NCBI GenBank assembly: GCA_002118135.1
Contig: BDIU01000020.1
Coordinates: forward strand, 124,001-188,000
Direction of reading: 5' to 3'
DNA: 64,000 bases
Source of the DNA: Trebouxia sp. TZW2008
Lineage: Eukaryota; Chlorophyta; Trebouxiophyceae; Trebouxiales; Trebouxiaceae
The notes under the pieces were generated by a model. It saw nothing but the letters and a program-made list of their open reading frames with translations. It ran no database searches and was not told the DNA's origin. Of this stretch, positions 6,101-27,821 are shown piece after piece (within the stretch, counting starts at the first letter, position 1; every line of letters starts with the position of its first letter). Both the position numbers and the translations under genes were made by a program.

Positions 6101-8402
6101 GTCCTGATGGCCTTCCTGGCTAGCTTCTCATCAATGTCATTGACGTACTCTGTCAGCTCTGTGGCAATATCATATGCATTGGTTTCATCTGCTATGGCAG
6201 CCAAGATGTCTAGCTTGAGGAACTTGATGTATGATGGCTCATTGATGCGGCAGTAGAATGTGGTGTATATCTGCAGAGAAAGGCCGAGTCAGAAAAGGCA
6301 TACATGCACACCTTGTGCCACACTTGGGACTTGAAAAATGCATCTTTTGTATTGGATTGATTCACAGCTAGGCATGTGGTGTTGTCACGTGAGCATAAAC
6401 AAGAACAACAGCAATTGAGGTAGTTGAGCCATTGACTGCAGTACAGGCAAGTCATGAGCTCCTGCAAGGACTCATGCAAGCTGACAGCATGACGCAGACT
6501 CTGCACCTGAGAGAAGATGATTGGGGCCCGCTGTGCTATGAGGTGGAAGTGACACAGCACAGCATAGGCAGTTTCAAAGTGGTCTCTGGACAGCAGAGTC
6601 ATCAAGGGATCTTTGATTCTCTCAAGCACCTACATGAGACACGCTGATGAGATCAAGCCTTATCAGCCTGGCATTTGACTGACATGCTTGACATCTGTAA
6701 GGCCTGCCCATGATGCAAATCAGGTTTTTTCCTTGCCAACTTGTAGCGCTCCACTGGGATCCCATGCAATATGACGCCCCAGTGTGACATGAGCCCAAGG
6801 TTGTGTTCACACAAGCAAGCGCTGCGTACCAGCTACAGGAGATGGCATTTTCCTATGACCATTTGTGCCAGTCACACAGCCTGTCATAAAAATGGACATA
6901 AAGGTGTTCATCACACCAAGCGCACCTCATGTCATGTGCTTATGCATTACGGTTAATATTGCATGCATCACAGCAAGTGCACCACAAATCACCTGTTGAT
7001 GTGTTGCGGGCATGGTGAGAGTGTAGTGAAGGAACATCTTGACGGTGGCCATGACCACAGCAGAGTTGGAGTGGCTGAGCCTGTCATCCAGAACATTCAT
7101 GAAGTCATACACTTCCTGCTCATCAGACGGTCTGTAATGTGTGGCAAACTCTAGCACTTGGCACTGAGCCCACTCTGAGAACTCCTGTAGTGGCAGCGTC
7201 AACATTGTTTACATGCTTGCAGGTGAGCGTTTATGATCCTGCTAGATACAACAAGAGCAGTGAACTGCTTTTATGCATGCTAGTGAGTTTTGATGGCCCT
7301 GCCAGGTGCATGCAGAAGCAGTGAAACTACTTTCAGACGATTTTGCATTATGCAACAAATGTGAGCTCAGCATGCGTGCTTCCTGGGTTTGTAAGACGCT
7401 GATGACCCACATGAAGGTCAGCGGAAGAGCCATGGGCAGTGAGTAGCAAGTGGGATCTAAGCTTGAGTGCTATGTACCTTGATGCGGTTCAGAAGTGAAA
7501 TGACAAGAGCCCTTGTCACCAAACTCTGCCCTGCTCCAGTCTGCATGATCGAGATGATAGCTTAGCCAAGGACAACACGCAGAGTTTGGGATAACAGCAT
7601 GGAGCATTGGCTGCTGGCCTTGAGGACAAGTGTCAGCGTGCAGGCAGACTGTGACTCATTGAGAATTGCTGTGCTTGCACTGCCTTACCTCTAGCAAAAC
7701 AGACATGCAGTTGGCAACTACTTGGGCGTCTGGGTCCTTTTGTAGCATGTCATGCAGATCATCTAGCATACCTGCAGCAAAGAATGACAACATGTCAGAC
7801 ATGATCAACAGAACATTGCTGCTACTGTGGAACTTTGCTTGCCTGCATTTCTGACTGCCGCTGCATCCAGATTGTAAATTTTCAACACACCCAATACTGC
7901 TGTACGCCGCACATAGGGGTTCCTGTCTTGCAGCGCTAACGACACAGGGGACACCTGGATGCAAAATCTGTCTAGAGCAGCTGGATTTTCTGGAAGATAA
8001 AAGAGCTAGTGAAGCACATACGATGTATTCGATCAAGTTGGCCACCCTCAGCGAGCACAGACTTCTCAGTGCTAAGCCCCTGATTGTGGGATCCTGATCT
8101 TTGCAGTCCTTGTTCAGCAAGTTGATGGTCAGCAAAGTCAGGTCCGGATTGGATTGGGCATACGTGCAGATGAACAGGTACAGCATCTTCTTGAGAACCA
8201 CGTCTTCGGCATTCGACATGCCTGCCGTCATGACTTGCATGAACAAGCTAGACATGTCGATGCCGATGGTCATGCAATTGATGACTTTCTTGAAGAGCTC
8301 TTTCTTAGCTATTGCTGCCTCCGGCCGGCCACCGGAAGCGCTTAGAGCGTTCAATTGTGTTCTGATTTCACCGATCTCTCCACGACTTTTCTCACCCGTC
8401 AT
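3144..8402 (-). CDS. AP4B1: AP-4 complex subunit beta (beta-adaptin), trunk only
   Basis: Large subunit of the AP-4 coat adaptor, which sorts cargo at the trans-Golgi. Eleven in-frame exons on the minus strand: 8402-8022, 7954-7843, 7771-7689, 7540-7478, 7184-6993, 6629-6507, 6270-6079, 5605-5444, 4527-4459, 4099-3900 and 3381-3144 (about 604 aa). The start region KKVINCMTIGIDMSSLF, then LLTINLLNKDCKDQDP and RGLALRSLCSLRV, fits AP-4 beta better than AP-1/2 beta. Later signatures are PDAQVVANCMSVLLE, FIWILGEHGQG, APYLLE and VHDRALLYYR. The second exon ends at a GC donor. The first ATG (8402) begins MTGEKSRGE. The protein ends soon after a segment matching the end of the trunk, so the hinge and ear (roughly 240 residues in plant relatives) are not seen. 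A donor-like GTCAGG at 3194 leaves room for a missed exon. Confidence 0.88.
3400..3960 (-). repeat. Decayed duplicate exon pieces in the last AP-4 beta intron
   Basis: At 3400-3440 the start of the last exon recurs (LLHSNVQEAK followed by a stop, against LLHYNVQEAKRIV in the real exon). At about 3685-3780 the end of the preceding exon recurs (GTACAGCAGAGCTCTGTCAT, against the true end at 3900-3930). Confidence 0.7.
5060..5325. repeat. Intronic tandem repeat of about 35-60 bp
   Basis: Variants of GCAGCATTGCTGAACACAAG plus a GATGCTGTGTTCAG-like segment recur at least five times with drifted spacing. It lies in an AP-4 beta intron and encodes nothing. Confidence 0.7.
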
Positions 8403-8711
8403 GATGCGCACGCTGTGTGCAAAGAACTTCGACAGGGCAGATCAGCACATGCTTGACTGCACTCGGATCCCTCAGTGGGACATCGGTAGCGACTGTTTTC
8501 GTTTGCGCAAAAACAAGTTAACGCTCGCAAGGCTCGTTCTTCTTCTCTGCCCACGGCCTGTTACAGCTCAAGTCTTTGACGCATGTCCAGCGCCTTTGCG
8601 GGCGATATACCGTCACCTTCGCAATGGCGTCGTTTTGGATGTGCGTCACGCAGCGTATAAGGCAACTCCATATTACGCGTGAGTAGTGATTTTGGGACTG
8701 ATCACTGAAAG
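8403..8711. promoter_or_regulatory. Divergent promoter between AP-4 beta and the TFIIIC90-like gene
   Basis: The start codons of the two head-to-head genes lie at 8402 (minus) and 8712 (plus), so 309 bp must hold both 5' UTRs and both promoters. No clear TATA box is visible. This stretch is less repetitive and richer in CG dinucleotides than the introns around it. Confidence 0.6.
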
Positions 8712-11700
8712 ATGGCTGCGGTGAACGGGGACGTCGTTGAAACGCTCGGCCGGCCTGAGTATTCTTCAGCCGTGCAATGGTCCGAGGACAACCTGCTAGC
8801 TGTTGCTGCTGGTCCAGCGTTATACATCGTCAATCCTAGTTGCGTCACCGGGCCTCGAGGATCAACCGCTTTGCCGGAGCCCTCGCTTGACCTGCTGCAA
8901 GTCGACGGGTACCCGCGCGAGCCCAAAGACAGCAGTACTTACGCATCAAACTACATGCGCACAAGGGGCATGTGCTCGCAGCGGACCAGCCAGATGGCCA
9001 GCAGCAAGCTCGGCATTCGCAGCATCTGCTGGTCCCCTCTGGGATGCGATATGTCAGGCAATGCACTGCTGACATCCATCACAGAGAACCATCAGGCAAG
9101 GCAATGCAACCGATTTGACCACGCCGAATGAAAGTTGCAGCGCGCTTGTGCCAACACCAACGCGCTGCTGTGACTGCAGCTTCGTATACATAGCCCGCCA
9201 GCAGGAAGTCAAGCGCAGTGGAATACAGTCACCGAGCTATGCAATGGCCTGAAGAGAGCACTGCAACAGGACCAATGGCAGGTCAGCTCTCCAGTTCTGG
9301 TTTTCACATTGTCATCATCGCCCATGCGCAGAGTGCATCACAACCCTCTGCATGGTCAGCATAGCACACAGTTTCTATTGTCATCCAATACATTGCTGCT
9401 GCTGCAGTCAGTAGACAACCCGCCAGGATTCAACAACAACAGTGCACACGATGTGCCTGTGCGCTTACGTGGCGGAGGTCAGCCCAAAAAGTCAAAGCAG
9501 GAAGGCAATCAGCGTCAAGATTCATCTTCCAAAAAGGCTGCTAAAGGCAACGCTGCAGCAGCAGCCAGTCCAGCAACAAAAACAGAACCTCCTGCAGAGA
9601 TGAAGGATGACTCACCACATCAGCAGGCTGGCAGCAGCATGCAAACGCCATTTGAGTATTATGCGGGGGATCATATCGAGGTGAATGCTTGCGTGCCACT
9701 GTTGCGCAAGGCCCTATGTGTGCAAGTATGATTTAAAAATTGGCTTGCAAAGCATCAGCGCTGAGTGCTGCATGATGGTCGGTACCAGTAAAAGACAAGT
9801 ACCAGGCAACAGCTGTGTTGATGGCGCTGTGATGTTCAAATCAAAACAACCAATTTTAACAGACTGATGCCTTGTGAGGATTCTATTCATGGCTGAGCGC
9901 TGCACACCTGCTGTTGTCATTTTGTGCTTACAATTGCTTTGGGGCTGCATGAAGGGGCTAGTTGCATTCATGTAGTGGTGGCAAGCCATCAGTCTTTGGT
10001 CAAGCCATGAGTGTCTGGCATTGGATCAGCTGCACATCTCTTCTGAAGTTGCCCACTGAATGCAGCAGTACACTGGGGTTGGGCCATCACTTCCATTTCA
10101 CAGTCAGGCCATAGGCTTTGAGACACGAGTCTGCTTCAACTCCCTCATGCCATACCTGCATGCTCGAAGAGTAGCTCTCTCATATTGCTATCACAGGGCC
10201 ATGAAATATCAACATACCTGCTGCAATGCACAGGTCATGAACGCTGAGGAGGGTCTGCAAGGCAGCTGGTTCACAGGCAGCATTACAGAGCTCCAGCATG
10301 GCTTTGCCCTGGTGACCTATGATGAGCTCATGGTTTCAGAGGACACAGATACCAAGCTGCAAGAGTGGTTTCCATTGCCACAAACAATAGAAGACAAACG
10401 GGCTGAGCTGCAATCTGACTATGATGCCCATTTTGGTCCTGGGTTCAAGTTGAGGCCAATCCCTTCCGCTGAGGTGAATGCTGGCTTCTGCCCTCGCAGG
10501 CAAAATCAACTGTCTGCTGATCAGCGCTTGCATGTCAGTGTCCAACAGCACATATCAGTCAGTAACTGTCTGGAGCAGCACACAGTCTGCTCAAGAAGAT
10601 AAACGGTTTCAAAGAACATAGCCAGGCCCTGGCTGAGGTGCTGAAACTGGAATTGCAGGATGGCATGGTCCAAGTGGATCCCTTGCATGCAGCTTTATGC
10701 ACTCATCTTGACGCCCATCTTCTCGTCATTATTATTGGCCGCATGTTGGCTAAAGCGTTATGTTGTTCAGCTTATCAAAGACATCTGCTGTCTGTCAACT
10801 TCAGCCCTGCATGATGCAACTGGCAGTACGTGGAGGAGTCAGGGCAGTTTATAATGATAGGAATGCCTGTCCAACCCAATGTGACATTCAACTTATCAAG
10901 TCCTGCAAATCACTGTAATGTTTAGGGCATCAAGTCCTGCTGGTCATCTATGGACTGCATAGCAGTTTCCTCTAGGGCATCTCCTGACTGCTGACCTCAT
11001 CCCTGAATGATGCAGCTGGCAGTGCGAGGAGGAGCTAGGGCAGTCGGTGATGATGTGGATGCTTGGGATGATGGGGCTTGGTGGGAGGGCTGCATCACAC
11101 AAGCCCTCAAGGCGCGCTACAAAGTGCAGCCCTTTGCCAGCACCAATGTGCTGACTGTGAAGAAGGACGATGTGCGCACTGGCGTGGTGTGGGATGGGCA
11201 ACAGTGGCAATCCAGACAGCCTCGAGGTGATGCTAACACCAAGAGCAATGGGAGAGGGAGGGAAGAAGTCAGCAGCAGGCTGAAAGCTTCTATGCAAGTG
11301 CAAAGCAGTGCTCTGACACCTGCATGTCTGCAGAGACCAAGAGCAAGGCAGAGGCCAAGCAAGCCAGCAGGAAACGCAAGACTCCGATGCAAGAAGAGCA
11401 GGAAGCAGCAGCAGACCCAGAAGCTGCAGAAACTTCAGCCAAAAAGGGACCAAAAGCAGAGGGTTACAAGCTACCAGAGGTAGGGTCTGTCATCAAGCGT
11501 TTGCTCTCTGGTATTCCAACAACTGCCAACATGATGGGCAGCCTCCCATACCAAGCGTGAGAAGCAAGCTTCCACCTAGGCCTTCAAGCGTGCAACAGAC
11601 ACGACAGCTGCTAGCAGGTCATGCAGTCTCCCGGACCAACAGTCTGACAGGTAAGCATCCCTTCAGGCCTGCTGAGCATGTAGCAGCCATGACAGCTGTG

Positions 11701-14700
11701 AATGGTTCATGCAGCCTTGCATGACAGCAGTCACAGGCAGACATCCCTTTAGGTCTGCTGAGCAGGCACCTGCTGTATAAGCTATGCCTTTGTGCTGTCG
11801 GAGGCTGCGTCTGACACAAGCATAAGCATGCATAGATTCAGGCTAGTGTCCTGTTCAAGTCACAACCTTGGACCTATGCCAACAATAGGTCGCCTGGCTG
11901 ACTTTGTACAATCTTGCATCTCAGAGGCAGTGCTCAAAAGGTGTGGTACTAGCAGTCACCAAAATTGCAAGTGCACCCTTCTGTCTTGCCACTGAACACA
12001 ACAAGTCTATGCCATGTGGATGAGCATTCATGAATGTCAATGTACACACCATCTGCTGCTGAGCTGTTTCGCTTGCAGGGCTTGTCTGTGGCTGATTCAC
12101 CAGACACTGAGGTGACTGTCAACAAGACTCAACAGCTGGATGTCACCAACATCACTGAAACAACGCTAACTCTCTGTGTGAGGGACGTCTACCTGAACCG
12201 CTGATTAGCTGGCAGGACTTTTCTGCAGCTGACTTGCCAGACATTGAGCTGACTGCCAACCAGACCTAACAGCTTGATGCCACACATACCATTGACAAGC
12301 TTCTGAGTCTCTGACTGGCATTCCCCTGAATGGCTGTTTGGCTTGCAGTGCTTTGCTGCAGCTGACTTGCCAGACTCTAAGGTGGCTGCCAGCAAGACTC
12401 AATATTGGATGCCACACATACCATTGACAAGCTCCTGAGTCTCTGTGCGACAAGCATTCCCCTAGACGGCTGTTTGGCCTGCAGGGCTTTTCTGCAGCTG
12501 ACTTGCCTGGGGCTGAGGTGACTGCCAACAAGACTGGGCGTGCATCTCTGGCAAGAGCCAGCGCTGCACAGTTCTTCGCTCTACGCCAAGAGGTAGGAGA
12601 TAGAACACTTTGTGTTTTTTACTGCTTTGCACTGGCACTATGTGGCTACAGAGCTTCTCTTGTACTAACCTTCATGAGACTGCTCAGCATTAGTTGTCCT
12701 GTCGCTTGATTAAGCATGAAGCTCTGTTACATTGAGCTTGCATTTTGCATGTGCTGAGCACAAACCACATGCATGTCCAGTGTACACCAGAGAGGTGACG
12801 TCCGCCACTTGCATGCGTCACAGTTGCTACCAAGCTTGCAATGCATGTACAACTGCCAGCTTTGCTGGCTTCAGCACGGGTCAACAGGTAGCACGCAATG
12901 TGCTCACATGCAATCACCCTTTCCGCTTGTTACCCGATCTGTCATGAGCTATGAGGTGTCTTGTCCATCCACTGTCTTGCTTCAGGTTTTCCACGGATCA
13001 GCTGCCAGCCTACAAAAAGTCACAGACACCAGCACCCGATCATTCTGTTACTTAGTCTGGCATCAGTCTTAGATCTGTTAATCACCCAGGGTGTTGCTTC
13101 AGGTCCCTGCTGATCATCTACCCAAATACACATTCCACAAATATCAGCATCCCTTCACCAGGTCACTGACTCTGATGTCAGGCGTAAGATGTCTTGTCCC
13201 ACCAAGGTGTTGCTTCAGGTCCCTGCAGAGCAGCTACCGAGCTACAAGAACCACAAAGATCAGCTCGCAGGGGTGGACGCCAACCTCATTAATCGCGTCA
13301 CAACAGAGTTTGCGGCAGCCTATGCTGACGCCATGGCTGAGCATGACATCAGCAAGCAAGCTTATGTGAAGAACTTCAGAGACAAGTGAGATTTTGCCAA
13401 TGCCTGTGCTTTGTTGTCTGCTTCTTTGATGATCAGCTGTTTGGCCAGCCCTGTCAGTCACACTGAATTGCCTTTGTGTTTACCCTGTAGCCTCAAGAAA
13501 TACTTTTCTGATCACCTTACAGCCTCAGAAACATAAGGAGGCACAGAACTTGCATACCTTGCACAGCTGCACCAACTCATGTCCATCCTAGCTCTTGTCA
13601 ACAGTCACCAGATGCATTGCATGGTCTATCACTGCAGGCTGCGGTTGTGTTGGGACAGGGTGCTAGATCCGACAGCTCAGCATGTGCAGCTGGACAAGAG
13701 GGTCAGGGGCGCTCAGGCCAATGTGGACCTCAGCCACCTGGCCTCTCCCTCCCCCTCCCCCCACCCCAATGAGGGGGGCGCAGACAGCGGTCAAGACTCT
13801 GGTGACAAAGTCAGCTGCTCTCAGCAGACAAAGATATGTGCTGTGATTTCAAATTTGGGCGTTGTGTCTGCTGGATGGGTGCTGTCATCTCAGTACTGAC
13901 ACCTAAACAGAAACTGGCATGCTTTGCACTTGTTCATATGTGAAAGTGCATGCCATTTGCCGCAGATGCAGAAGCAGTGCTTCATGTCTCATACCTTGTG
14001 AACACCTCAGCAGTAAATGTGCACTTTGCCCTGCATTGCCAAAGTGATGCAGGGGAGAGACAAGAGCAAGACGGGAGGCAAGCGTGTGGGTGAAACAGTG
14101 AGCATGCGGTTTGGGTAGCGAGCATCAGCATGTCTTATCAGTGCATGGTCTGTAGCTTCTTGATATTGTTGTGTTTGGTCAGCTTCAGATGACAGTCAGA
14201 TTTTATATTTGCGCTGCAGACGGCGCCTCAAGGCGCAACACTAAAGCCAGCACATTCCAGGTGCCAGAGTCCTTTGACTGTAGTGTTCTGGGAGAGGTTG
14301 ATGTGAGCAGCAAGGAGTTGACACTACATGTTCTGCAGCTTTTGTAGCACTGTTGCCTCTGCTTAGCTACCTGTGTCTGCTGCAGAAGGCAACTCAGACC
14401 TTGAAAGTCAAGCCAGCGCCGTACCAGGTGCCAGAGTCCTTTGACCGTAGTGTTCTGGGTGAGGTGGATGTGAGTAGCAAGGAGTCGACAGAGGCTGGCT
14501 TGGCCAATGCCTTCTGGCTGAGATGGATGCACCTCAGGGAACAGGTCATGGATTCTTTCACCACATGATATGCAAGTGACAGCAATGCAGCATTTTGCGC
14601 TGAACACAGGCCTTGCATTGCAGCGCTGCTTTGTGCTGGCATTCATCTGCAGTGCGTGCTTGGGAAGACTGCAATCGCAGAGCACTGTCTTGCGCAAGGA

Positions 14701-17700
14701 ATGTAGTTGATAGCACTCCACATGTCCATTGGGAGCCTGACAGAGAAGTGTGTACAGTCACAGAGCATTCACCCTTGGCATGTTCTCAGCTGTCTGAGTC
14801 CACATCCCAAACTGCTGGAAGTATCAGAATTGCAGCACTCATGTCAGCATTGCAGCATTCATTTCAGCACGTTCTGCTGCCCCTGCACGGTTTACCACCA
14901 ACAAATCCCTTTGCACTGCTGCGACATCTGCTGCACAGTCATTTCATGCCCTACAAAGCTTTGCTCACATCTTATGCATGCTGCTCAGTGCTGCTCAGCC
15001 AAATGCCCTCTACACAGTTGCGCTGCAGCTGTCTTTGTCTGTCCACAAAATAAAAGCAACCTCTGCTTTGGGTTCACCAGCTTCAGAATTAGCTCAAGGG
15101 TAAAAGCTTCATGCGTACATGAAATTTTTGCTTCCGGAGGTCCAGCTGCTGTCCTCAAAGAGCAAAGCACTCAATAAGACATGTGGGTTGCAGATTCCTG
15201 AGGAGAAGAGAGAGTCGTATGCCAAGGGGCAACATTTGCGTGGAGCAGACGCAGTCAATGCTGACAGGACCCGAGCAGAGATTGTGAGTAGCAGCAAACT
15301 TTGGATTGAATTTCAGCACATTCACCTTGCCTTGATGCATATGTGAAGTGGTTTAGACATGTGCATGCCTGACTCGAAAACGTGTCATCCATGTAGCAGC
15401 TCATTAGTCCTTATGTATCATCTTGAGTAATGTGCAAAGGTTTGTTGCCTGAAATCGCGTCTGGCAAGCTGTAATGATGTGGCAGGGTCTACAAGCAGTG
15501 ACAGGCCTGTACAGGTTGCGGCATTTGGTGACAATATGAAGCGGCATGGGATGGGTGAGAAGCAGCTGGTGATGCTGGGCAAGCAGCTGATCTGCAGCCG
15601 CAGCATTCAGACCCAGGCTGTGTTTTGCAGTAGCTCCTTGCAGTCAAAATGAGCGTCTGTTGCAGGTGGCAGCTTTTGGTGAAGACATGAAGCGGCATGG
15701 AATGGGTGAGAAGCAGCTGGTGATGCTTGGCAAGCAGCTGATCCGCAGCCGCATCATCCAGACCCAGGCTGTGTTTGCCAGCAAGCCCAAGAAGGAGTGG
15801 ACGGGGCAGGAGGAGCAGCAACTGCGTAAGCTGGCCAAGCGAAGGCGTCAGCCTACTGGCATGTCTGATGACGACGCCTTGGTACTGCCCCAAATAAGCC
15901 CTGAACAACATGAGTGATGCTCACAACATGACTCACATAACAAAGGACACTTGTGCACTGCAGCCCACTGGCATGTCTGATGTCAATGTCCTGGTATTGC
16001 ACTCAACACAGTCAACAGGTTTTGTCAAATCAAGGCATCGAAGCAAGGCTGAATTATAGCATGCAGCAACATGAGTAACAGAGCATGCATGGTGACAACA
16101 GAGTTGAAGGAAGTTTCATGCACTGCAAAGGGCAGCATTGGCACAAGTCTACTGGCATGACTGATGACAAAGCACTGGTACCAAGGCCCCTTCGACAATC
16201 GCACTCAATTTGAGGGTTGCAGACATGGTGACCACAACATTGTCGAAGAACATTGGCACGTCTGCTTTCAATGCACTGGCACAACAAAAACACCGACCTA
16301 GGCACAGCATGCAAGAGCAAGTTGGGTCTGCTTGTCTGCTAACGACACTCTGCTAATGCAAGTGCCCCTTTGAAGAAAGTCTTGAACACAAGAGCAATGT
16401 GGAGATGGGCGTGGACATTTCCATCAACCTTGCTTGTCAAGTGTTTGCTGTTAGACTTGTTACATGCTGCTGCAACTGCAGACATGGTGTGCCCATCATT
16501 TAGTTCATGTAAAGAGAAGAATGAGTGTGCTGTCAGTAGGAGGAGGTATCTGCCTACACTTTTTCACAAAGTCATGAGAACCATGATTGTGATCACAGTG
16601 TCTTTGTCATTTCAGTGATGCTTGCAATGAGAGGAAGCGTCTACACTTATCTCAGCATGTTTCAGTCGCTCTCAATGTAGACACAAAGTAATGATCACTG
16701 CATTGGTGCTTGCAGTGGGAAGAAGTGCCTGCTTACACAGTCTCAGCAGACTTTGACAAAGCTTGCCTGGGCGATGTGGACATGACTAGCGAGGACAAGG
16801 CACGCAAGAGCCTGCCTCGGGCATTCAAGCATAGGTGGCTTCATTTACGCTCCCAGGTAGTCTGAAGCACACTTTGTGCTGGGGACAAATAGGGGCCAGC
16901 TTGTCATATTGTGTCTATGCATTCAGAGGGCAAGAAGAGCAGCTTGTTTTCTCTACAGAGATGTATATCTTTGCATGTCTGACCACTGATGGTGTCTTTT
17001 CTACATAGATATATATATCTTTGCATGTCTGATTAGTGTTGGTGTCTTTTCTACATAGATATATAGCTTGTTTTCTCTACAGAGATGTATATCTTTGCAT
17101 GTCTGACCACTGATGGTGTCTTTGCATCGAGAGGGGGCTAGAACAGGCCAGCAAGGGCAGATATAGGCAAGGCCTGGCGCATACAACAAGCTTGGTGCTA
17201 ACAGAAGGTTGCCGACTCTTCGTGAGCGCCAAGCTTGTAGCATGCACCACACCTTGTGTCTGTCTGAGCCTGCTGGCCTGCTCTGGAAGCCATCAATGTC
17301 ACTTGGTCAAGCTCTTCAAGGTCAGCATGGAGTTGACGCAGCACTAACAAGCCTTTGATTCTTGCTCCTTTGACAATCCTCAACATCTTCTGAAGCAGGC
17401 CGCACTGTTGCCATTGCTGCTGACGCATATATGTAATTGCTGCTGTCGCTGATGTTGATGCTGACGTTTGTGTTAATGCTGCTGCTTGTGCTGTGCTTGC
17501 ATGAGCAAGCTGTGCTGTTTGTCTACACTAGGGTGGTTGACTTGGTGCAGATGTCACAGTCCCTGATTCCAGTCTACACCATCAACGACCATTTCCAGGG
17601 GGTTGATGCACAGAATGCAGAGCAGACCCGAGCTGAAGTGGTGAGCTCTACACACCTAACGGCTGCTGTTGCCTTTTTTTCGCATGACACAACCACGTGC

Positions 17701-20700
17701 ATGTCTCTAGTGGCCATTTGAATACTCTCTGCAGGCTCACTTGATGGGTGGCAGCTGGTGCATGCACGCTGACAAAGCGTGTTATCATCATCATTGTCAA
17801 CGAGTGTGTCTGATGAAAGAGCAGTGTACTGCTGGCGTTTCATCTGGCCTTGACAGTTTTGTCAGAGCATGTGGCACTCAGCAGCAAGCTTGGTACAGCT
17901 CATGCACACCTATCTGACGTCCAGCTGCAACACCTGTGTCGAGTGTTATAAACATTGCTGGGTAAAACCCCAGTGCTTGTTGCAGATGTCAGCCTACAGT
18001 CCTGAGATGCAGTCACTTAGCTTGACAGAAGCCTGGCTCATGACAGCCGACGCTTGCTAGATGATCTGCAAAAGACCTGTGAGCACTTTGATCAGCTTGT
18101 TTGGTGATGCCTCATTGTCTGCTGCAGATGTCTGCCTGTGGTCCTGAGATGCAGTCACTGGGCTTGACAGAAGCCTGAATCAACATGGCCAATGCCGGCT
18201 TGATGCCTAGTACACACTTAGCTGACTAGGTGTGGACTCTGCATATCCGTAGGCCCTTGTATCAGCTTGACACCAGCTCTTCTTGCAGATGTCTGCCTAT
18301 GGTCCTGAGATGCAGTCACTGGGCTTAACAGAAGCCTGGCTCATGACAGCCGGCAAGCAGCTCATCTGGCAGCGATTTCTGCAAGCTAAGCTCAGAAGAT
18401 CAAGCTCAGAAGCTGCTTCGCCAGCTGCAGCAGCAGGCGCCTCAGCGACTGCTGCTGCTGCTTCAGCAGATACTGTGTATGAAGTCCCAGCTGATTTTGA
18501 CCCTGCTGTGTTGGGGGAGCCCGACTTCAGCAGTCAAGCCTCAGGGGAAAAGGCTCTGGCTGTGATGTTTGTGAGGCGGTGGTGGGAGCTTAGGGATAAG
18601 GTAGAGTCCTGACGCTGCCCTCCAGCAAGATGCCCTCGCCCTGAGGGCTTGCATGGAGGGGCCTGCCCAGAGGATTTGCAGGGGCTGGCTCTGCCTTGGG
18701 GCTTTGCATGGGAACCGCCCTGCCCTGAGGACTTGATTGGGCTGGCCCTGCTTTAAGAGTGTGCACAGACTGCCCTGCCCTGCTGTGCCCGCTTGCAGGC
18801 CATGTGAGCCCTTCCTGTTTTCTGTCTGTGCCACTGGCATGCTGCGATGCACTGATGTCAGCTTGTGTTAAATAACTTTGCAACAGTGTCCAGACGTAAT
18901 GTATAGGGTACAAATTCATCACGCTGTAGGCACATACTGTCACCTGACAGACTGTGCAGGGCTATGGCAGTGCTGATGAGACCTCTACTGCTGCAGGGAC
19001 CAGAGGCACAGCATGAAAGCTACAAAAAGGGGCAGCATCTGAAGGGCGTTGATGCTGCCAATGCAGAGCGAGTCAGAGCAGAGATGGTACAATACGTTTT
19101 AGCTGTCTCGATTTCTTCGCTCAACATCTTTGCTTCCTGCGACCTTGTCTGCATGCATTGTGACGGCAAGCGCAGTCTGCTGTATGCCTGATGCTGTGCT
19201 GTGCCGTGCTGTGCTGTGTCGTGCTGTGCCCTGCTGTGCCGCCCTGTGTTGTGTTGCATGGCTGCAAATCCTGATGATTATGACCGCTTCGATGCTGACC
19301 TGCATGTGCAGATGTCAGCTTTTGGGGAAGAGATGCAGCGCCTCAACATCACAGAAAAGGTTCTGCTAAGGGATGGGAAGCGGGCGATTCGCGCTGAGCT
19401 GAATGCAGCTCAGCGGGCTGACGCTGAACCAGAGACTGATGACCATGTACAGGTCAACCTTTTTTTTGATGCTGCTGTGCTCTCACGTGGACCCTCAATG
19501 CTGTTTTGAGCGAGATTTTGTGTCTGTGCTTGTCAGCAAACATCAGTCGCAAGTCAATACTCCATCTTAATACAGATAACTTTTGGATGCTCGTCTGCCT
19601 CAAACTTAATAGCCCTGCATATCAATCCTAGATGGGCATCACACAGAGCTGCCCACAAAGCATTAGGGCTCAAGCAGTACGCTTCATGCTTTCATGGCCC
19701 TGATGCTGAGATAAGTTGCATCATGGACAGGGCCGGTCTGCTGGCAATGAAGTTACTCACGGCAAGCGCCAAAGGCGCAAAGCTGCAGCATCGGCGTCCA
19801 AAGCCATGAAGGCTGCTCAGGACAGCCCTGAGGGCCCTTCCTCAGATGATGAGTACAAGGGGGATACAGAGCAGGAGGATGATGCCTTGAGCCTTGGAGT
19901 TGATGCGGACAGTGGCCTTGAGGCAGAAGATGGCATGTAGGATCCATGCTGCTGCCATGTAAATTGTACTTAGCATACACTCTGACGCAGCGCTGGGTTG
20001 TGACCTTTGAAATTTCAAAATTGTTTGGCGCTCTGAAGTGTATGCTCACATAACCACATCACATCGACATGCATTTGTACGAGCTTGCTGATCAGCAGGG
20101 CAAGGTATCCGTTGAGCAGAATGTTCATATGATGTTGATGTATTGTGCAAGTTTGAAGTACCCAACCTTTCTGATGTATGCAGAGATGGTCACCAAGGGA
20201 AAGTTGCTATCAAGCCCAAAAGGAAGAAGACTCGCACGTCAAACAAGCTGGTAGGTGCTAGTGATGCTGTTTCCGTCAGCGTTTGAATCGTTTTGCGTGG
20301 CATCCTGACAGCTTTGTTCCAGCTACAAATTCATGCATGTTTGACGTGCTGCTACGCGGACAGTCTGCAAGCAATTCTGCTGCCATATCTATGGTCACTA
20401 CTGCACTGGCAGATTTGCATTGAACCGTGTCAATGCAAAGCAAAGGACCACCCAGGACAAGTCCAGATGCGCCTGCACAGTAGTTGTCAGATTTTGGTTC
20501 ACTCAACTTTTGCTGTAGTGGCTATGAAGACAACAGCATGCAGCATCAACATTGTGGAACAATGCAAAAGAGCTTGTAGGAGATTGCAGGGCTCTTCTGA
20601 CAAATTTACAAAGATGACTGCAGATCATGCCATGCATCAGCAAATTCAGGGGGTGCGACGTGAACAGATCAACATCAGCCTTGTGCAATGCACTCTCCCA

Positions 20701-23700
20701 CATCTTCTGCAACAAAGTTGCATATGCATATGCAGTGCTGGTGTGGTAACTAGGCCAGTGTCAGCGGCAGCGGTTTCTGATAGTCTGCGCCCATCAATGC
20801 AGGCCAGTGTTACTGACAGCATTGTCTGACAGTCTGACAATCATGACATTCTGTAGTTATGACTACAGGCCAGTGTAGGCGGCAGCAGAACTGGACCAGA
20901 CAAGCCTGTGCCCCTCAACATGTCTGCTCAGCAATATCTGGGGCGCATGGATGCACTGGCCCTGTTGCAAGCGGCCTGGTCCCCCGTATGCCACCTACCT
21001 GATGGCCAAGGTGCGCTTTGCATGCTTTGCAGGCGCTGCAAGCTTAGCGCTGTGCATGCTTTGCATCAGTGACGTATGCGCCGTTTGCATGCGTCACTGA
21101 TCCTCTGCATGCTTTGCAGGTCCTGCAAGCTGTGCATGCTTTGCGTGAGCGACATGCAAGGCTGCTTTCCTTCCTGCTTTACTGCCAGTTCTGTCATTGC
21201 TTGCACAAGGCAGAGACATGTCACAACGCAGATGTCAGAAGATGCATCAGAAGCCATGCATGCAGATCCAAGGCAGTGTGAGTAAGGTCAATACTGAGCC
21301 AGTGTGACTGATGCAGGACACCAGAGCTTTGCACTACTGGCTGCGGGGTGTAAGGCTGGCATTGTGTGGGTATGGAGGTATAGCCTTCCCCCTCAGTATG
21401 CCCCTCTGGGCCATCCCTCTCCTAATGCCTTCACCCTGGTAAGCTGTGCCACTTCTGGTTGCAGCACCATCATCATCATGTTGACTGTTGAGCTATGGTC
21501 AGCTCTGCCAATTTCCATAGCATCATCATCATCACCTACACATTTGATTGTGAGCTATGGTAAGCTTTAACAGTTTCTGTGGCAGCATCAGCGTGTTTGC
21601 TGGGCAGCTATGACATACCTTTGCCTGTGCTGCGGTCTGTCTCATCTGGGACACGGCATCAATTCAAAGTTGCGACCTTCACACAGTCAACATTAGTCAG
21701 AAGCTTGACAGTCTCAACACTTGAAATCAGGCACCTCTTGTCTTGCTGCAGATTGGCGGTTTCAGAGCCCAAAGGTCCCATGTGACCGCTCTAGCTTGGG
21801 CCACATTGCAGCCACCCGCATCTGACGCCGCACCCCAACACAACCCACAGCCCACCCGTCACAAAGGGCCACAGACTCAGGACACACAATCACAACTTCA
21901 GCAACAACCCACAAGCCAGCTAATGCTTGTCACAGGCAGCTCTGATGGCTGCTTGAGGCTTCATGGGCAGTCTGTTGAATCGCTTGCCACTGCCCAACTG
22001 GGCAAGGCTGGTTCAGCGCAAGCGCAGTCTGTTGAGTCGCTTGCCACTGCCCAACTGGGCAAGGCTGGTTCAGCGCAAGCGCAGTCTGTTGGGGCTCCTG
22101 GTGCTGCCCAAAAAGGCAAAGCTGCTTCAGTGCATGAGCAGTCTGTTGAGGACCTCGCCATTACCAAACTGGGCAAAGCTGATTCAGTGCAGGGGCAGTC
22201 TGTTGAGCCCCCTGCCACTGCCCAAATACGCAAAGCTGGCCCAATACTGACAACTGATCTCATGCAGCTGCTTAAGACGCTGCATGACGTGGATCTGCTG
22301 GGCGTGACGTGCGTCAGTGTGAAGCCTGCAGCGCCCACATCTACAGGTCAGTGCTGCAACGAGTGTGTTCCTGAAGTGGATGACTTACACCTTGGTGGCC
22401 TATCGTGAATGATCTTTTGTTCACAGCATGATCTTACTGTGGTGTGCCATGCTAGGTTGTCCTTTGTGCTTCCTTCTTCACATGACAGTTTGCCAACAGA
22501 GATTCCGGCTCATTGCAGTGAAGACCTCAGTCCATCTGATGACGATGTTGTAAAATTGTGTGCGTAGTTCCCAATGATCAGATTTTGGTCTTCCTTGCAG
22601 ATGCTCCAAGGCTGTTGGTAGCTGCTGGCAAGTCTGGTGGTGCTTTGCTGGTGTGTAGCATCAGCCCTTGCAAGCCTTCATCAGGCGGACCCAGTGCCAG
22701 CCCAGCACAATTACATCTGCAGTACAGCCCAGTACAGCTGCGGCATCAAGCACACTCTACCAGGCACGTCACCAGCATTGCTTGGGCTGCCACTGATCTG
22801 CTGAACATGCAGCAGCAGCAGCAGCAGCAACATGCTGCTCACCGCTCAAGTCCATCACAGCAAGCACAGCAGCAGCCCCAGCAGCAGCAGTCACATCCTC
22901 AGCAGCACTCAGTGCTAGCACAGCACGCACAGCAGCAGCAGCAGCAGCAGCAGCCTGCAGCAATGCTGTTGAGTACCGGAGCAGATGGCAAACTGAAACA
23001 ATGGCGAGTGAGCTGGCCAGAAGGGCAGAGCCTGCAGCTGATGGAAGTCAACTGCCCCAAGGCTTGGAACAGCCCCTCCCTGGAGAAAGACTCAACCTTC
23101 CTGCCAGGCGGCTTGGCTGTGTCTGGCAACAGTCTGATGATGGCCGTGGCTGTGGACAACGGCACAACAGCTGTGGCTGCAGTCCAGTAAATGCACTTTA
23201 TCATCGCTGCATGGTGTCTTTGCTGGTGTCCACAGGCTTCATTGAGTAAAAGCATGACAAGCATCATTGATTTTACTCAATTGAGCCTGAGCAGTTGCCA
23301 AGCCAAACGTGCATCTCTGCAGGCAATGCATGCCCTTTAACAGCCTGCATGCTGATGTGCAACTTGGGCAAGCTGGTCCCAATGTCAACAATCATCATTG
23401 AATTCCTTGACAGTCCTTTGCTACTTGGGCAACGGTCACAGTCGGAACAGCATTCAGCTCAATTATTCCACAGAAGCATTCGAGCAAGGTGCACAAAGTA
23501 TCTGCTGCTGTTGTCTGTGCTTTAGCAAGAAACACAGTCAGGGGCATGCTCAGCCCTTTGAATGGTCATCACGTTGAAGCCAGGCTCTGCTGCTGCTGTT
23601 TCGTCTTGGGCAAGAGACGCAAGCAGGTCATGTTCAGCTCTTTCACTGTGTCACAGCCCTGGTCATAGATTCTGCTGTATTCACAGCAGGCAGGAAATGA

Positions 23701-26700
23701 TCTAGAAGAGACTAAACAATGGCAATTCGTTGCTCCACAGCCTGCCCTGCCCTGTTGACAGCCACCGCACTGCCGCAGCTGTGGCCGCTCAACTGGCCAG
23801 ATCGGGAGTGAATCCAGCTGACTTGCTCACAGACTCTGCTGCTGCTGTTGCAGGCAAGACATGATCTACAAGAGGCTGTACAATGGGAACCTGGTGCTGC
23901 GTAGCCTGTGCGGCAGCCTGCCCTGCACCCTTGACAGCCACCGTGCTGCCACAGCTGTGGCCGCTCATTTGGCTGGATCATCAGTCAGTCCAACTCAACT
24001 CTGGGATCTTGCCCGCATGCTAAAACAGCATGCACAGGCTGCTGTTGATGCGGCATCTGCTGCTGCTGTTGCTGGTCATGGTGCTGGTGATGATGATGAT
24101 GACACTGGTGCTGCTGCTGGTGACAGTGCTGCTGTGGCTACTGCATCTGCTACGCCTGGTGCTGGTGCTGGTGCTGGTGCTGGTGCTGGTGTCAGTCATG
24201 TAAATGGTGATGGTCGGGATGACAATGCTTTTGAGAGAGGTCAAGGCGATGGCGTGGCGTTGGACGCTGATGACAAAGGGCTGAAGTTGGTTGATACGGT
24301 GGTGCAAGCTGCAGCAGAGGGTCCTGAAGGTCTTGATCAGAACAAGGATGGGCAAAAATCACATGGCAATGCAGTGTCATCACGACTCACATCAGTTGCT
24401 TCTTCAGGTGGGGCTCATGTGTGACTCCACAAAGCTCACGCTGCGAAAAACCTGCCAGCAATGGCGGACAGACTCGTTCACCCTGCAAAATCTCACGTGA
24501 ATGACAGTGGCTGGGTCAAACCATAGTATGCCAGCAGAGCCATGTGAAAGCTTGCATTACGGAGCCAGTACTCTGCGCTGTCAGCAAGCCTGTAAGTGCA
24601 GTAGCATCCTGCCTGCAACAGCTGCCTGCAAGATCTGACAAAGCTTGTGTCACGATTGGCAGGTATGGAAGAAGAAGAATTAGTGCCAGGGGCGCAAAGA
24701 GCAAAAAAGCCTGGAGTAGCTTTGATCTCTCTGAGGCATGCAGACAAGTCTGATGAACATGAGAGCAGCAAGGATTGCCTGTCCCTGGACCAGGCTGTGG
24801 CCCAGTCTTCGCTTGTTCAGGTACGGGCATTCAAGGCAGAACAACGCTTGCACATTGACCCACTCAGGGTGAAGTGCAGGATTCTTGACTTAAAAACAGC
24901 TGTGATGTTACCAAGCAAAACAACACTCAAGGGCTCGCCATTGATTCATGGCAGAAGCATGAGACTCTGCCTGTACAGCAGCTGTTGTATGATGCTTGCT
25001 GTGCAGACGCAATGCATAGCAATTGTCTCGCTTGTATTGTAGGTTGTCACAAGTGCTTCTGCAGTTGAGTCTGACTGCTGCCTGGTGGCTGCATCAGGCT
25101 ATGCACCTGATGATATGCGGGGAAGGGGGGCAACTTTGAATAGCTGTCCTTGCTGCTGTGCCTTACACTCCAGCTCACCAGCATTGCCAGTTGCGAACGG
25201 CGCAGTCAGATTTGTTGCAGCAGGTTTCTCATGCCAGCCAACCATCATTTGTGTCATGCAGGCTGCCCTTGATGCCTTGGAGCAGCCATACTACCAGCTG
25301 ACACGCCGCCAGGGCATAGGCCACCAGCACCTGCCCAGAGCTGTGCACCAAGACCTGCATTACGCACCTGTTTCATGCTGCCAATGTCAGTATCTGGTGC
25401 AGGCTGTCCTTGACTGCTTGGAGCAGCCATACTACCAGCTAGCAGGCAGGCAAGGCGCAACAGATCAGCCCCTGCCCAGCGCTGTGCACCAGGGCTTGCA
25501 GTACGCAACTGCCCTGCGCCATCTGCTGCACCCTGCCAGGCTTCTGCCCTCTCACCATGAGGTGAGCTGTTTAAACATTCAAGTCTGCCATGCATTGGCT
25601 CCAGTGCTCAGGTGTCTTCAGGTGTGCCTTGATTCAGGTTTGTAGGTATGTTCAGGTGTGCCACATCTTGGTATAAGCTTTCAGGCGTGGTGAAGGGTGC
25701 CATGCCTCGGTCGCATGCTGGCAGCTGATTGCCGATGTGTCCTGGCAATCTTTCTCACAGCTTTGCACACTGGACCTTGCAATCCTGTTGGAATTCAACT
25801 CAAAGGTTCCCCTGATGTGGTAATGTCTGCGACATAGCACTGACGCCAGGTTTATGCAAATGCCAAAAATTGTGACAATTTGAGGTCTGGTGTGGCCTAT
25901 AGCTGAAGCTATATATCTGTTGCATCTGAGCTCCGTAATGCTAGATGCTAATTGCTGACCGCGGGCGCCAAAAGCAAGCATGCACTGTCAATGACATGTG
26001 GAGCTGATAAATAGGCTACCTTGAAAATAACAAGCCTGTTGGGATAGGGGAGGGCGTTCAGAACTGAGGCTTTGTACGCAGTCTCTCTATTCACCTGAAT
26101 AGATGTTGAGACCAGACGTGCAATTCAGCTGGGACAGTGTGTGCATACTTGGCTAGGATCTGCCTGTACTGCACTCAGATTGTGTGTAGACTCGTTTAGC
26201 TTGTATGGTTGGAAGCTGACCTGCCTGACACACTGTGACCTATGTTCGACATGTTACTGCTCTGCAGATACATGATGAGCCTCCATGGCAGCAGCCGGCA
26301 ACAGCAACCCATGCCGCCCAACCTCAACCCCCCACCAACCCCACAGAAGCCCCCAACACCAAGCCTTGGACGAAGGACTGGGAGCAGCAGCTAGAGCGGA
26401 ATGAACTGCAGCTACTGCAGTTGCACATCATGAAAGTTCTGCGAAAGCCGCGAGGTACTTTTCTGCTCTGCACGCTGTGTGATTTGATGAGAAGACTGCT
26501 CACCAAAATGTGAAGCATTGTGCACAGTATGCATCTGAGCAGTTCAATAGCTGCTTTGCCATATAATGCATCAAAGCTGCAGTCCTGCGTTACTGGGCAT
26601 GCCTGCAGGGTAACGAAAGCATTGTGCCTGTTTCTGCGTTCTGAATTGCTGTTTGGATGCAGATGACGAATCTGGGAACATGCACAGGCAGGTGAGCGAG

Positions 26701-27821
26701 TTGTTGCTGGCGGATTGGGTGTCGATGCATGACGGACAGTCCTGGCTGCTGCCTGGATTGATGAACCTGGCTCAACAGGTATTTCAAGTCACACTCTTTG
26801 GACTGCACTTCAACGCTTTGCTGCTGTGGCTGGCACATTGTTTACTAGTGTACCTCTGTAGGACTCAGTGCGGCGCAGGTGCTGCCAGACCACATACCCC
26901 AAGTTCATGTCTGCCTGCTCCTAACAATGAGCGCAAGTTATTGAATGCTCGATGCATAATGCTCAGGTTGAAGTGCCGTGTGCAGTCTTGCATCGCTAGC
27001 CTTTGCTGACCATGAGCATCACCTTTGTTTCAGCACAGGCTGATGTAAGCTTATCAGTGAAGTACAGCGCGTTATCACAGCAAGAGCTCATGTTTGGCAT
27101 GTCAGGATTCAGGCAAATCACATCCTGCCAGCATTTTCAAAGCAAGAGCTCATGTTTGGCATGTCATGATTTAGGCAAATCACATCCTGCCAGTGATGAG
27201 CACAGCATACCTCACGCTGAAATGCTTGATCTCAGCTGATGCTTGTCAGTGCAGGTGTATGCTAGGTATGAGCTGCCAGCTGTTACACCAAATAGTCAAG
27301 CACCATCCAGAGAAGTGTCTGACTGGTTTGGCGTGGAGCTGCTCTTGGCAGGGTCCCCTTTGGGGTCTGCTCAATTTGTGCCGGCATCCAAGGTTGGTCT
27401 GCACCTGTTCCTTATGTATTATGAGCATATGCAAACATACTTTGCAGATAACCAGACATGGCTTCTGGAGCAAGCGCCACTATTGCTCTGTTCAAATGCA
27501 TGCTCAGCAAGCCTGTAACCATCTTTGTTCATGTTGCATGCATCATTGTGTATGATCTGTGTTGCTAGCTTAGCAGGTAAACACTAACAACACTGTGTGC
27601 ATGGTGTCTTGCAGGATGTGCCAATCTGCTTGCAGCGCTGTGCAGCAAGCTTGCTGATATGCGAGACCACACAAGTGTGGCGTTGCCAGCTGTGCAGCAG
27701 GCGATACAAGCACCTGCAGCTCCATGCTTCAACCACGACATTGCCGACCTGCCTGTGTTGCGGCATCAACTTGGGAGTGACGGCAGCTGATCAAGCACTC
27801 CGACCGCCAGCCATGCTGTGA
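8712..27821 (+). CDS. GTF3C4: TFIIIC90/GTF3C4-like WD40 protein with Agenet and Q-R-P insertion
   Basis: Predicted subunit of the RNA polymerase III factor TFIIIC. I find 32 in-frame exons (about 2,224 aa): 8712-9095, 9180-9281, 9408-9680, 10234-10473, 11016-11226, 11334-11479, 12485-12592, 13219-13385, 13638-13809, 14053-14089, 14220-14260, 14428-14544, 15194-15283, 15666-15881, 16716-16856, 17551-17640, 18289-18600, 18997-19086, 19312-19452, 19731-19936, 20184-20250, 20869-21010, 21317-21438, 21752-22346, 22601-23186, 23854-24407, 24663-24820, 25043-25561, 26268-26454, 26663-26778, 27255-27392 and 27615-27821. Residues 1-162 match the plant family's first blade (SAVQWSEDNLLAVAAGPALY, then LRIHSPPAG). 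The family resumes at SAQQYLGRMDALALLQAAWS, ALLAAGCKAGIVWVWRY and LMLVTGSSDGCLRLH. The end (WRCQLCSRR, then LCCGINL) is the TFIIIC zinc finger. Roughly 950 residues lie between the halves. The first intron is GC-AG. Exon choices around 14220-14544 and 23854-24663 are the least certain. Confidence 0.85.
9408..11226 (+). other. Tandem Agenet (Tudor-like) domain coding region
   Basis: Three exons (9408-9680, 10234-10473, 11016-11226) encode the plant-type Agenet pair, about residues 245-404 of the TFIIIC90-like protein. The first half has GDHIEVMNAEEGLQGSWFTG, a VTYDEL strand and a LRPIP end. The second has GDDVDAWDDGAWWEG, a YKVQPF strand and VWDGQQW. This matches the family pattern (GxxVEV, EEGxxGxWF, RPxPP, GDxVDAxxxDGWWxG). 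Agenet domains bind methylated histone tails or other chromatin marks in plants. A reader function here is inferred. A Lys/Ala/Ser-rich linker precedes it and a KRKT-containing basic stretch follows it. Confidence 0.85.
12068..12592 (+). repeat. Exon 7 of the TFIIIC90-like gene in four tandem copies
   Basis: Units of about 133-139 bp each carry a TTGCAG-type acceptor followed by the start of the exon. Starts are near 12079, 12217, 12349 and 12485. The readings are GLSVADSPDTEVTVNKT, FSAADLPDIELTANQT then a stop, FAAADLPDSKVAASKT, and the intact FSAADLPGAEVTANKT. Only the last continues in frame to a GTAGGA donor. Confidence 0.85.
12975..13260 (+). repeat. Start of exon 8 in three copies
   Basis: TTGCTTCAGG followed by a VPAEQLPSY-like reading occurs near 12982, 13094 and 13211, about 113 bp apart. 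The first two copies are frame-broken. The third is the real exon. Confidence 0.8.
14230..14510 (+). repeat. Duplicated P-module start, about 176 bp apart
   Basis: CAGGTGCCAGAGTCCTTTGA occurs at 14258 and 14425, each followed by a similar GEVDVSS reading. The first copy runs into a stop. The best in-frame model leaves the first copy at its CAG|GTGCC and re-enters the second at the identical CAG|GTGCC. Confidence 0.8.
15512..15785 (+). repeat. Duplicated R-module exon start
   Basis: AAGCGGCATGGGATGGGTGA (15540) and its near copy (15688) are about 148 bp apart. The first copy has lost its continuation into the lysine-rich part. The second is the coding exon. Confidence 0.8.
16940..17125. repeat. 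Intronic duplication with internal 62-bp repeats
   Basis: GCTTGTTTTCTCTACAGAGA followed by ATGTATATCTTTGCATGTCTG is present near 16942 and 17067. Between them are two shorter units starting CTACATAGATATAT. The copies are nearly identical, so the event is young. Confidence 0.85.
17975..18360 (+). repeat. R-module exon 3 in three copies
   Basis: TGCAGATGTCTGCCTATGGT-like starts lie near 17983, 18125 and 18284. The readings are MSAYSPEMQSL (then a stop after TADAC), MSACGPEMQSL (then a stop) and MSAYGPEMQSL (open). Spacing is about 142 and 159 bp. Confidence 0.85.
19193..19260. repeat. TGTGC-type pentanucleotide repeat
   Basis: Imperfect (TGTGC/CGTGC)n run inside the intron between Q4 and R4. 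Strand-shifted readings give artefactual Arg/Ala/Cys frames. Confidence 0.85.
20745..21160 (+). repeat. Short duplications flanking the conserved WD40 return exon
   Basis: AGGCCAGTGT plus variants occurs near 20751, 20801 and 20868; the third begins the coding exon at 20869. Downstream, a CATGCTTTGCAGGCGCTGCA-like unit recurs at about 21020-21160 in the following intron. Confidence 0.65.
21968..22252 (+). repeat. In-frame 57-bp repeat, five exact-length copies
   Basis: Starts at 21968, 22025, 22082, 22139 and 22196, always 57 bp apart. Each encodes 19 residues of the pattern QSVESLATAQLGKAGSAQA. The first two copies are essentially identical; the later three diverge (QSVGAPGAAQKGKAAS, QSVEDLAITKLGKADS, QSVEPPATAQIRKAGP). 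It lies in a WD40 loop of the TFIIIC90-like protein directly after SSDGCLRLH. Confidence 0.95.
22808..22960 (+). repeat. CAG-rich polyglutamine tracts
   Basis: Several CAG runs encode glutamine stretches of up to eight residues within one exon of the TFIIIC90-like protein, between SIAWAATDLL and LLSTGADGKLKQW. They form a loop between WD40 strands. Confidence 0.9.
23680..23995 (+). repeat. Duplicated exon start, about 167 bp apart
   Basis: A unit with GACAGCCACCG and GCTGTGGCCGCTCA occurs near 23757-23795 and 23933-23969, each after a CAGGCAxGA acceptor-like start. The second copy is open and is the coding exon at 23854. Confidence 0.75.
24148..24193 (+). repeat. GGTGCT hexanucleotide repeat
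   Basis: Perfect (GGTGCT)n run encoding alternating Gly-Ala within a low-complexity, Asp- and Ala-rich stretch of the TFIIIC90-like protein. Confidence 0.9.
25259..25520 (+). repeat. In-frame 141-bp duplication (47-residue repeat)
   Basis: GCTGxCCTTGAxxxCTTGGAGCAGCCATACTACCAG starts at 25262 and 25403, 141 bp apart. Both copies are open in one frame (ALDALEQPYYQL and VLDCLEQPYYQL). The first may be translated as part of a 519-nt exon, or skipped by using the second copy's GTGCAG acceptor. Confidence 0.85.
27075..27200. repeat. 62-bp direct duplication in an intron
   Basis: CAAGAGCTCATGTTTGGCAT and its continuation to ATCACATCCTGCCAG occurs at about 27080 and 27142 with few differences. Confidence 0.9.

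Follow-up and report, generated by a model that had tools for sequence, protein, structure and literature searches.

Among the subunits of TFIIIC, a factor of RNA polymerase III, TFIIIC90 is the WD40 protein; it belongs to the B-box-bound half of a complex that acts on nucleosome-covered transfer RNA (tRNA) genes and at chromatin boundaries. The Agenet systems closest to the one considered here are the tandem cassettes of AGDP1/ADCP1 and AGDP3 (PDB 5zwx, 5zwz, 6ie4-6ie7, 7yta, 7yt9). According to the AGDP1 paper, the dimethylated lysine 9 of histone H3 (H3K9me2) is held in an aromatic cage of Tyr122, Trp127 and Phe144 together with Glu149, and Glu45 and Glu89 hold unmodified H3K4. Here we analyse a gene of the green alga Trebouxia sp. 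TZW2008 that would combine the two systems. It lies at 8712..27821 on the plus strand of the window, by which we mean the whole 64,000-nucleotide stretch analysed (contig BDIU01000020.1, positions 124,001 to 188,000). Our analysis indicates, with very little doubt, that TFIIIC90 and a large insert carrying an Agenet pair form one fused gene.

An exon-by-exon rebuild from the raw sequence gives a single open frame of 30 exons, from the ATG at 8712 to the TGA at 27819-27821, which encodes 2,092 residues after exon 26 was shortened on comparison with a relative. The original prediction of one continuous frame over this interval is thus borne out, with 30 exons in place of the 32 it had drawn and its outline unchanged. 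The insert spans residues ~163 to 1105, or ~943 residues where ~950 had been estimated, and contains an RLRGG motif, a tandem Agenet, four modules and charged linkers; the modules, recovered by a profile search within residues 448-994, are the same four repeats that had been described as Q-R-P modules.

Searching with residues 1-1105 returned two related proteins, and a search with a profile of the window and Trebouxia sequences returned seven, which we label P0001 to P0007; taxonomy was looked up for three of them. In five, Pfam reports TFIIIC_delta followed by Agenet: Trebouxia C0005 (P0001), Trebouxia C0004 (P0003), Myrmecia bisecta (P0004), Chlamydomonas schloesseri (P0006) and Dunaliella salina (P0007, whose TFIIIC_delta score of 28 bits is just over the cut-off of 27 bits that applies both to this profile, PF12657, and to Agenet, PF05641). 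The remaining two are a truncated model from Trebouxia A1-2 (P0002), which begins within the N-terminal part, and a metagenomic protein (P0005; 1,464 residues, from a contig of 5,390 bases), which lacks the N-terminal repeat and carries an Agenet match of 26.8 bits, two modules and the C-terminal part. As far as these sequences tell, the order N-terminal propeller, Agenet, modules, C-terminal part is present in both Trebouxiophyceae and Chlorophyceae. The architecture originally proposed, with Agenet and modules between two TFIIIC90 parts, is therefore supported and recurs in several green algae, so that it is wider than was supposed when no TFIIIC subunit of this kind was known. The Agenet annotation of the relatives is already visible in databases (precomputed Pfam matches, some UniRef names), and no paper describing a TFIIIC subunit with an Agenet domain turned up in a search of the open-licence literature.

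The relatives' models have faults of their own. The C half of the Dunaliella model aligns poorly, the zinc-finger end is missing from P0001 and P0003, and two models are merged with another gene, P0003 with a short-chain dehydrogenase gene and P0004 with INTS7; all of these are likely to be prediction faults. In P0004 an Integrator subunit 7 domain occupies residues 1516-1726 (INTS7_N, 8e-38), probably through the merging of two gene models.

Profile comparisons make it highly probable that the protein is a TFIIIC90 of the GTF3C4/tau60 family. Its N half (residues 23-162) matches positions 1-136 of the TFIIIC_delta profile at 45.6 bits (7.6e-12), and once the insert is removed the match covers positions 1-312 in one stretch at 81.9 bits (7.6e-23). 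All three insert-free members match TFIIIC_delta, the matched stretch being given for the window member only. When a three-species insert-free profile was compared with PDB, human GTF3C4 (8cli chain B) was the best of 4 rows (E 4.4e-11), and its alignment spans residues 71 to 394, straight across the insertion site; a search with the insert left out returned no plant protein. From this propeller alignment and the insert-free TFIIIC_delta match it follows that the insert lies inside one propeller domain and, judged by eye, the insertion point would be a loop that follows the first complete repeat of the WD type. Of the initial description as a plant-type TFIIIC90 WD40 protein, the relation to human GTF3C4 is shown. 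The algal genome itself holds one TFIIIC_delta match, and a six-frame search of it finds Tau95.

Several results count against this assignment. Taken by itself, the C-terminal half of the window protein has no TFIIIC_delta match reported by Pfam; among the C halves of three relatives, that of Myrmecia reaches 24.5 bits (profile 158-266) and that of Trebouxia C0005 22.4 bits (profile 154-338), both below the cut-off, and that of P0005 has no match. The six-frame search of the algal genome gave no match to B-block_TFIIIC (PF04182). Finally, Pfam reports no zf-TFIIIC match for the C-terminus, only a weak one to Vps36-NZF-N, so that of the three profiles named with the original prediction TFIIIC_delta and Agenet are reported and zf-TFIIIC is not. 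The C-terminal pattern W-x-C-x2-C followed by C-x2-C-G is present in the window protein, P0005 and P0006, with its first half only in P0004; P0001, P0003 and P0007 stop or diverge before it.

The Agenet match takes in residues 249-330 and a second stretch, at 52 bits, and the two domains are predicted to pack as a cassette of the AGDP1/ADCP1 type. P0001, P0003, P0004, P0006 and P0007 all score above the Agenet cut-off and P0005 falls just below it. In sequence and in predicted fold the pair is closest to H3K9me readers, and it is acidic, with 26 aspartate or glutamate and 14 lysine or arginine residues. Besides this gene, the genome has one frame with an Agenet match, on contig C253 (58450-58572, frame 4405-4635; 26-27 bits), the only other one reported there and, by eye, a different, single Tudor-type protein.

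Ahead of the pair, in an otherwise poorly conserved linker, stands an [L/M/V]RLRGG motif (window 9459-9476, residues 180-185), its only occurrence in the six frames of the window. In 6 of 7 proteins its start falls within residues 167-190; the C0005 version is LRLHGG, and P0005, which is without the N-terminus, has none. Chlamydomonas and Dunaliella carry a second RLRGG copy some 50 residues further on. We take the motif to be the same as the C-terminus of ubiquitin. The linkers on the return side are oppositely charged, with 16 acidic and 2 basic residues in 1040-1085 and 8 basic and no acidic residues in 1086-1106.

The four modules are near neutral in charge and, in a prediction of high confidence, helical. 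None of the families in the libraries searched matches them, and the module is a candidate new domain. A module-4 query against the algal genome gave 3 matches, all in this gene and in the exons of modules 2 and 4; the query is insensitive, since modules 1 and 3 of the same gene escaped it. Identity to Trebouxia C0004 is 68% in the N-terminal part, 67% in the Agenet pair and 70, 80, 71 and 74% in modules 1-4, compared with 63, 57 and 61% in three stretches of the C-terminal propeller and 52% and 49% in the C-terminal parts. The linkers stand at 26, 37, 55, 42 and 44%, and that between modules 2 and 3 at 84%. By this measure, conservation between the two proteins is no lower in the insert domains than in the propeller. 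Overall, domain identity is 57-80% to Trebouxia and 32-50% to Myrmecia.

How might such a protein work? The reading that we moderately favour is that of a green-algal TFIIIC90 with an arm of ~943 residues, whose Agenet pair grips the H3 tail near TFIIIC in the service of chromatin-dependent binding or a barrier function. The propeller would dock in TFIIIC at the B box of a tRNA gene, and the flexible arm would leave it through a loop and swing out. The acidic Agenet pair could then grip the N-terminal H3 tail of a neighbouring or flanking nucleosome and the roughly neutral modules could engage partner proteins, which would make TFIIIC binding or barrier function depend on nearby chromatin. H3-tail binding is plausible given the closest sequence and fold relatives and the acidity of the pair, with only Trp127 of the K9me2 cage kept, and we would put it at about an even chance. 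That the pair reads a specific methyl-lysine seems unlikely.

A possible but less favoured explanation keeps the same fused TFIIIC90 and treats the insert as a scaffold: the Agenet pair would bind a non-histone ligand, for example the protein's own RLRGG stretch or a partner's methylated arginine or lysine, and the modules would bind RNA polymerase III or TFIIIC partners, without any reading of histones. Against this, the closest relatives in sequence and fold are H3 readers and, relative to the residues that the AGDP1 paper assigns to unmodified H3K4, the Glu45 equivalent is kept in 6 of 7 proteins (P0005 has Gly) and the Glu89 equivalent in 7 of 7.

A rather unlikely reading goes further than H3-tail binding and takes the pair to read H3K9 methylation as AGDP1/ADCP1 does, so that it would bring TFIIIC to silent chromatin or sense it. 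The top fold and sequence matches do include H3K9me1 and H3K9me2 complexes, the Trp127 equivalent is retained in 6 of 7 proteins, and in the window and Trebouxia proteins a Phe stands one residue past the Phe144 position. However, of the cage as described in the AGDP1 paper only Trp127 is retained: Tyr122 is replaced by Asp, Thr or His or falls in a gap, neither Phe144 nor Glu149 is conserved, and Myrmecia and Chlamydomonas have no aromatic residue near position 144. These losses also weigh against the favoured H3-tail reading. The original suggestion that the protein senses histone state is partly supported: the Agenet pair is acidic and closest to H3K9me readers, which makes H3-tail binding plausible, but of the cage it keeps only Trp127.

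As for the gene itself, two points speak against an uninterrupted model: all seven relatives are predicted proteins, and the junction from exon 18 to exon 19, the weakest that matters, has a poor donor after 19936 (at 4.6 bits it ranks eighth from the bottom among 29, and 12% of the gene's 1,106 GTs reach that score). Without this donor the frame stops at TAG 19938-19940. We accept the continuation because the relatives' modules run on into the C-terminal part, in Trebouxia C0005, C0004 and A1-2, Myrmecia, Chlamydomonas, Dunaliella and the metagenomic protein. It is very improbable that a separate Agenet and module gene (~9408-19940) sits within a TFIIIC90 intron or between two TFIIIC90 pieces: the frame could end there with an acidic tail, and TGTAA, presumably an algal polyadenylation signal, follows shortly after the stop, but exons 2 and 3 lie within one stop-free frame (9174-9728), insert parts are joined to TFIIIC90 parts in seven proteins, a single short contig encodes P0005 with its Agenet, modules and C-terminal part joined in one protein, and outside this gene the module query gave no match in the genome, within the sensitivity noted above.

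More generally, and tentatively, we propose that the TFIIIC of core chlorophytes may carry an arm with an H3-tail-reading Agenet (for the K4 state, perhaps for K9 mono- or dimethyl through a remodelled cage) and 2 to 6 copies of the new domain, so that histone state would directly set transcription of tRNA genes and short interspersed elements, or boundary function, and the conserved, ubiquitin-tail-like RLRGG would add another point of control. With a cassette of the histone-tail-binding type built into a subunit, chromatin reading by TFIIIC would become directly testable in Chlamydomonas through a few residue mutations.

Matches to P0003 by tblastn cover 26 of the 30 exons in order, with none for exons 3, 6, 19 and 30, besides cross-matches between modules. 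Exon 1 (8712..9095; Pfam, tblastn with P0003) encodes the TFIIIC90 N-terminus and has a GC donor at 9096, and exon 2 (9180..9281) ends the N-terminal propeller part (LRIHSPP...AQWNTVTEL), up to residue 162, as placed by the TFIIIC_delta profile and the P0001 alignment. The insert starts in exon 3 (9408..9680), with a VRLRGG motif, a low-complexity linker and the first strand of Agenet domain 1, which continues in exon 4 (10234..10473; Pfam, tblastn with P0003 and P0004); Agenet domain 2 is in exon 5 (11016..11226; Pfam, structure and sequence comparison, tblastn). A basic linker in exon 6 (11334..11479), where module 1 begins, is followed by the modules, each placed by profile and tblastn: module 1 (residues 448-546) and a linker in exons 7-9 (12485-12592, 13219-13385, 13638-13809), module 2 (614-711) and a linker in exons 10-12 (14386-14544, 15194-15283, 15666-15881), the first two thirds of module 3 (763-860) in exons 13-14 (16716-16856, 17551-17640), its end, a linker and the start of module 4 in exon 15 (18289..18600), and the remainder of module 4 (897-994) in exons 16-17 (18997-19086, 19312-19452). 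Exon 18 (19731..19936; relatives, tblastn at 19761-19922) is an acidic linker with its donor GT at 19937 inside ATG-TAG, and the insert ends with a basic linker in exon 19 (20184..20250). Exons 20-24 (20869-21010, 21317-21438, 21752-22346, 22601-23186, 23854-24407) supply the remaining propeller, by the insert-free TFIIIC_delta match and tblastn; exons 25-28 (24663-24820, 25403-25561, 26268-26454, 26663-26778; tblastn) supply the C-terminal part beyond it, and exons 29-30 (27255-27392, 27615-27821; tblastn with P0004 at 27624-27755) the cysteine-rich, zinc-finger-like end and the stop.

The 29 introns measure 84 to 1,005 bases (median 396), and 28 are GT-AG, the first being GC-AG. In 8 of 28 internal exons (5, 7, 8, 10, 12, 15, 24 and 26; window 10800-25400) decayed copies of the exon's own 3' splice site and 5' part stand in the preceding intron, three for exon 7 and two for exon 15; two exons have short downstream copies. 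Possibly these copies are a source of alternative acceptors, or what is left of tandem duplication in which the downstream copy survived. Exon 22 contains about five tandem 57-base units (21962-22246), which translate into repeats of 19 residues within the propeller part; Trebouxia C0005 has mostly gaps here. Downstream, the P0003 match continues through a neighbouring short-chain dehydrogenase gene (28269-30259), and gene order is therefore common to the window and Trebouxia C0004. Some 300 bases upstream a divergent gene on the minus strand (7656-8411) resembles, by eye, what we take to be a beta-adaptin of the adaptor protein (AP) complex.

Compared with known systems, the module shows a weak, non-significant profile resemblance to HMG box B of TFAM (E 0.41; 9 of 12 listed rows are TFAM), HMG box and TFAM being absent among the rows of two further module comparisons; the BEN domain of BEND3 (PDB 7v9i) was also among the systems compared. 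The tandem Tudor (Agenet) of FMRP/FXR gives lower Z than the AGDP rows, at 15-19% identity. Whereas AGDP1, according to its paper, has three cassettes, the algal TFIIIC90 has one. Human TFIIIC90/GTF3C4 shares collinear propeller homology with the algal protein, but in the alignment the ~943 algal residues that carry the Agenet pair and modules face only a short human stretch.
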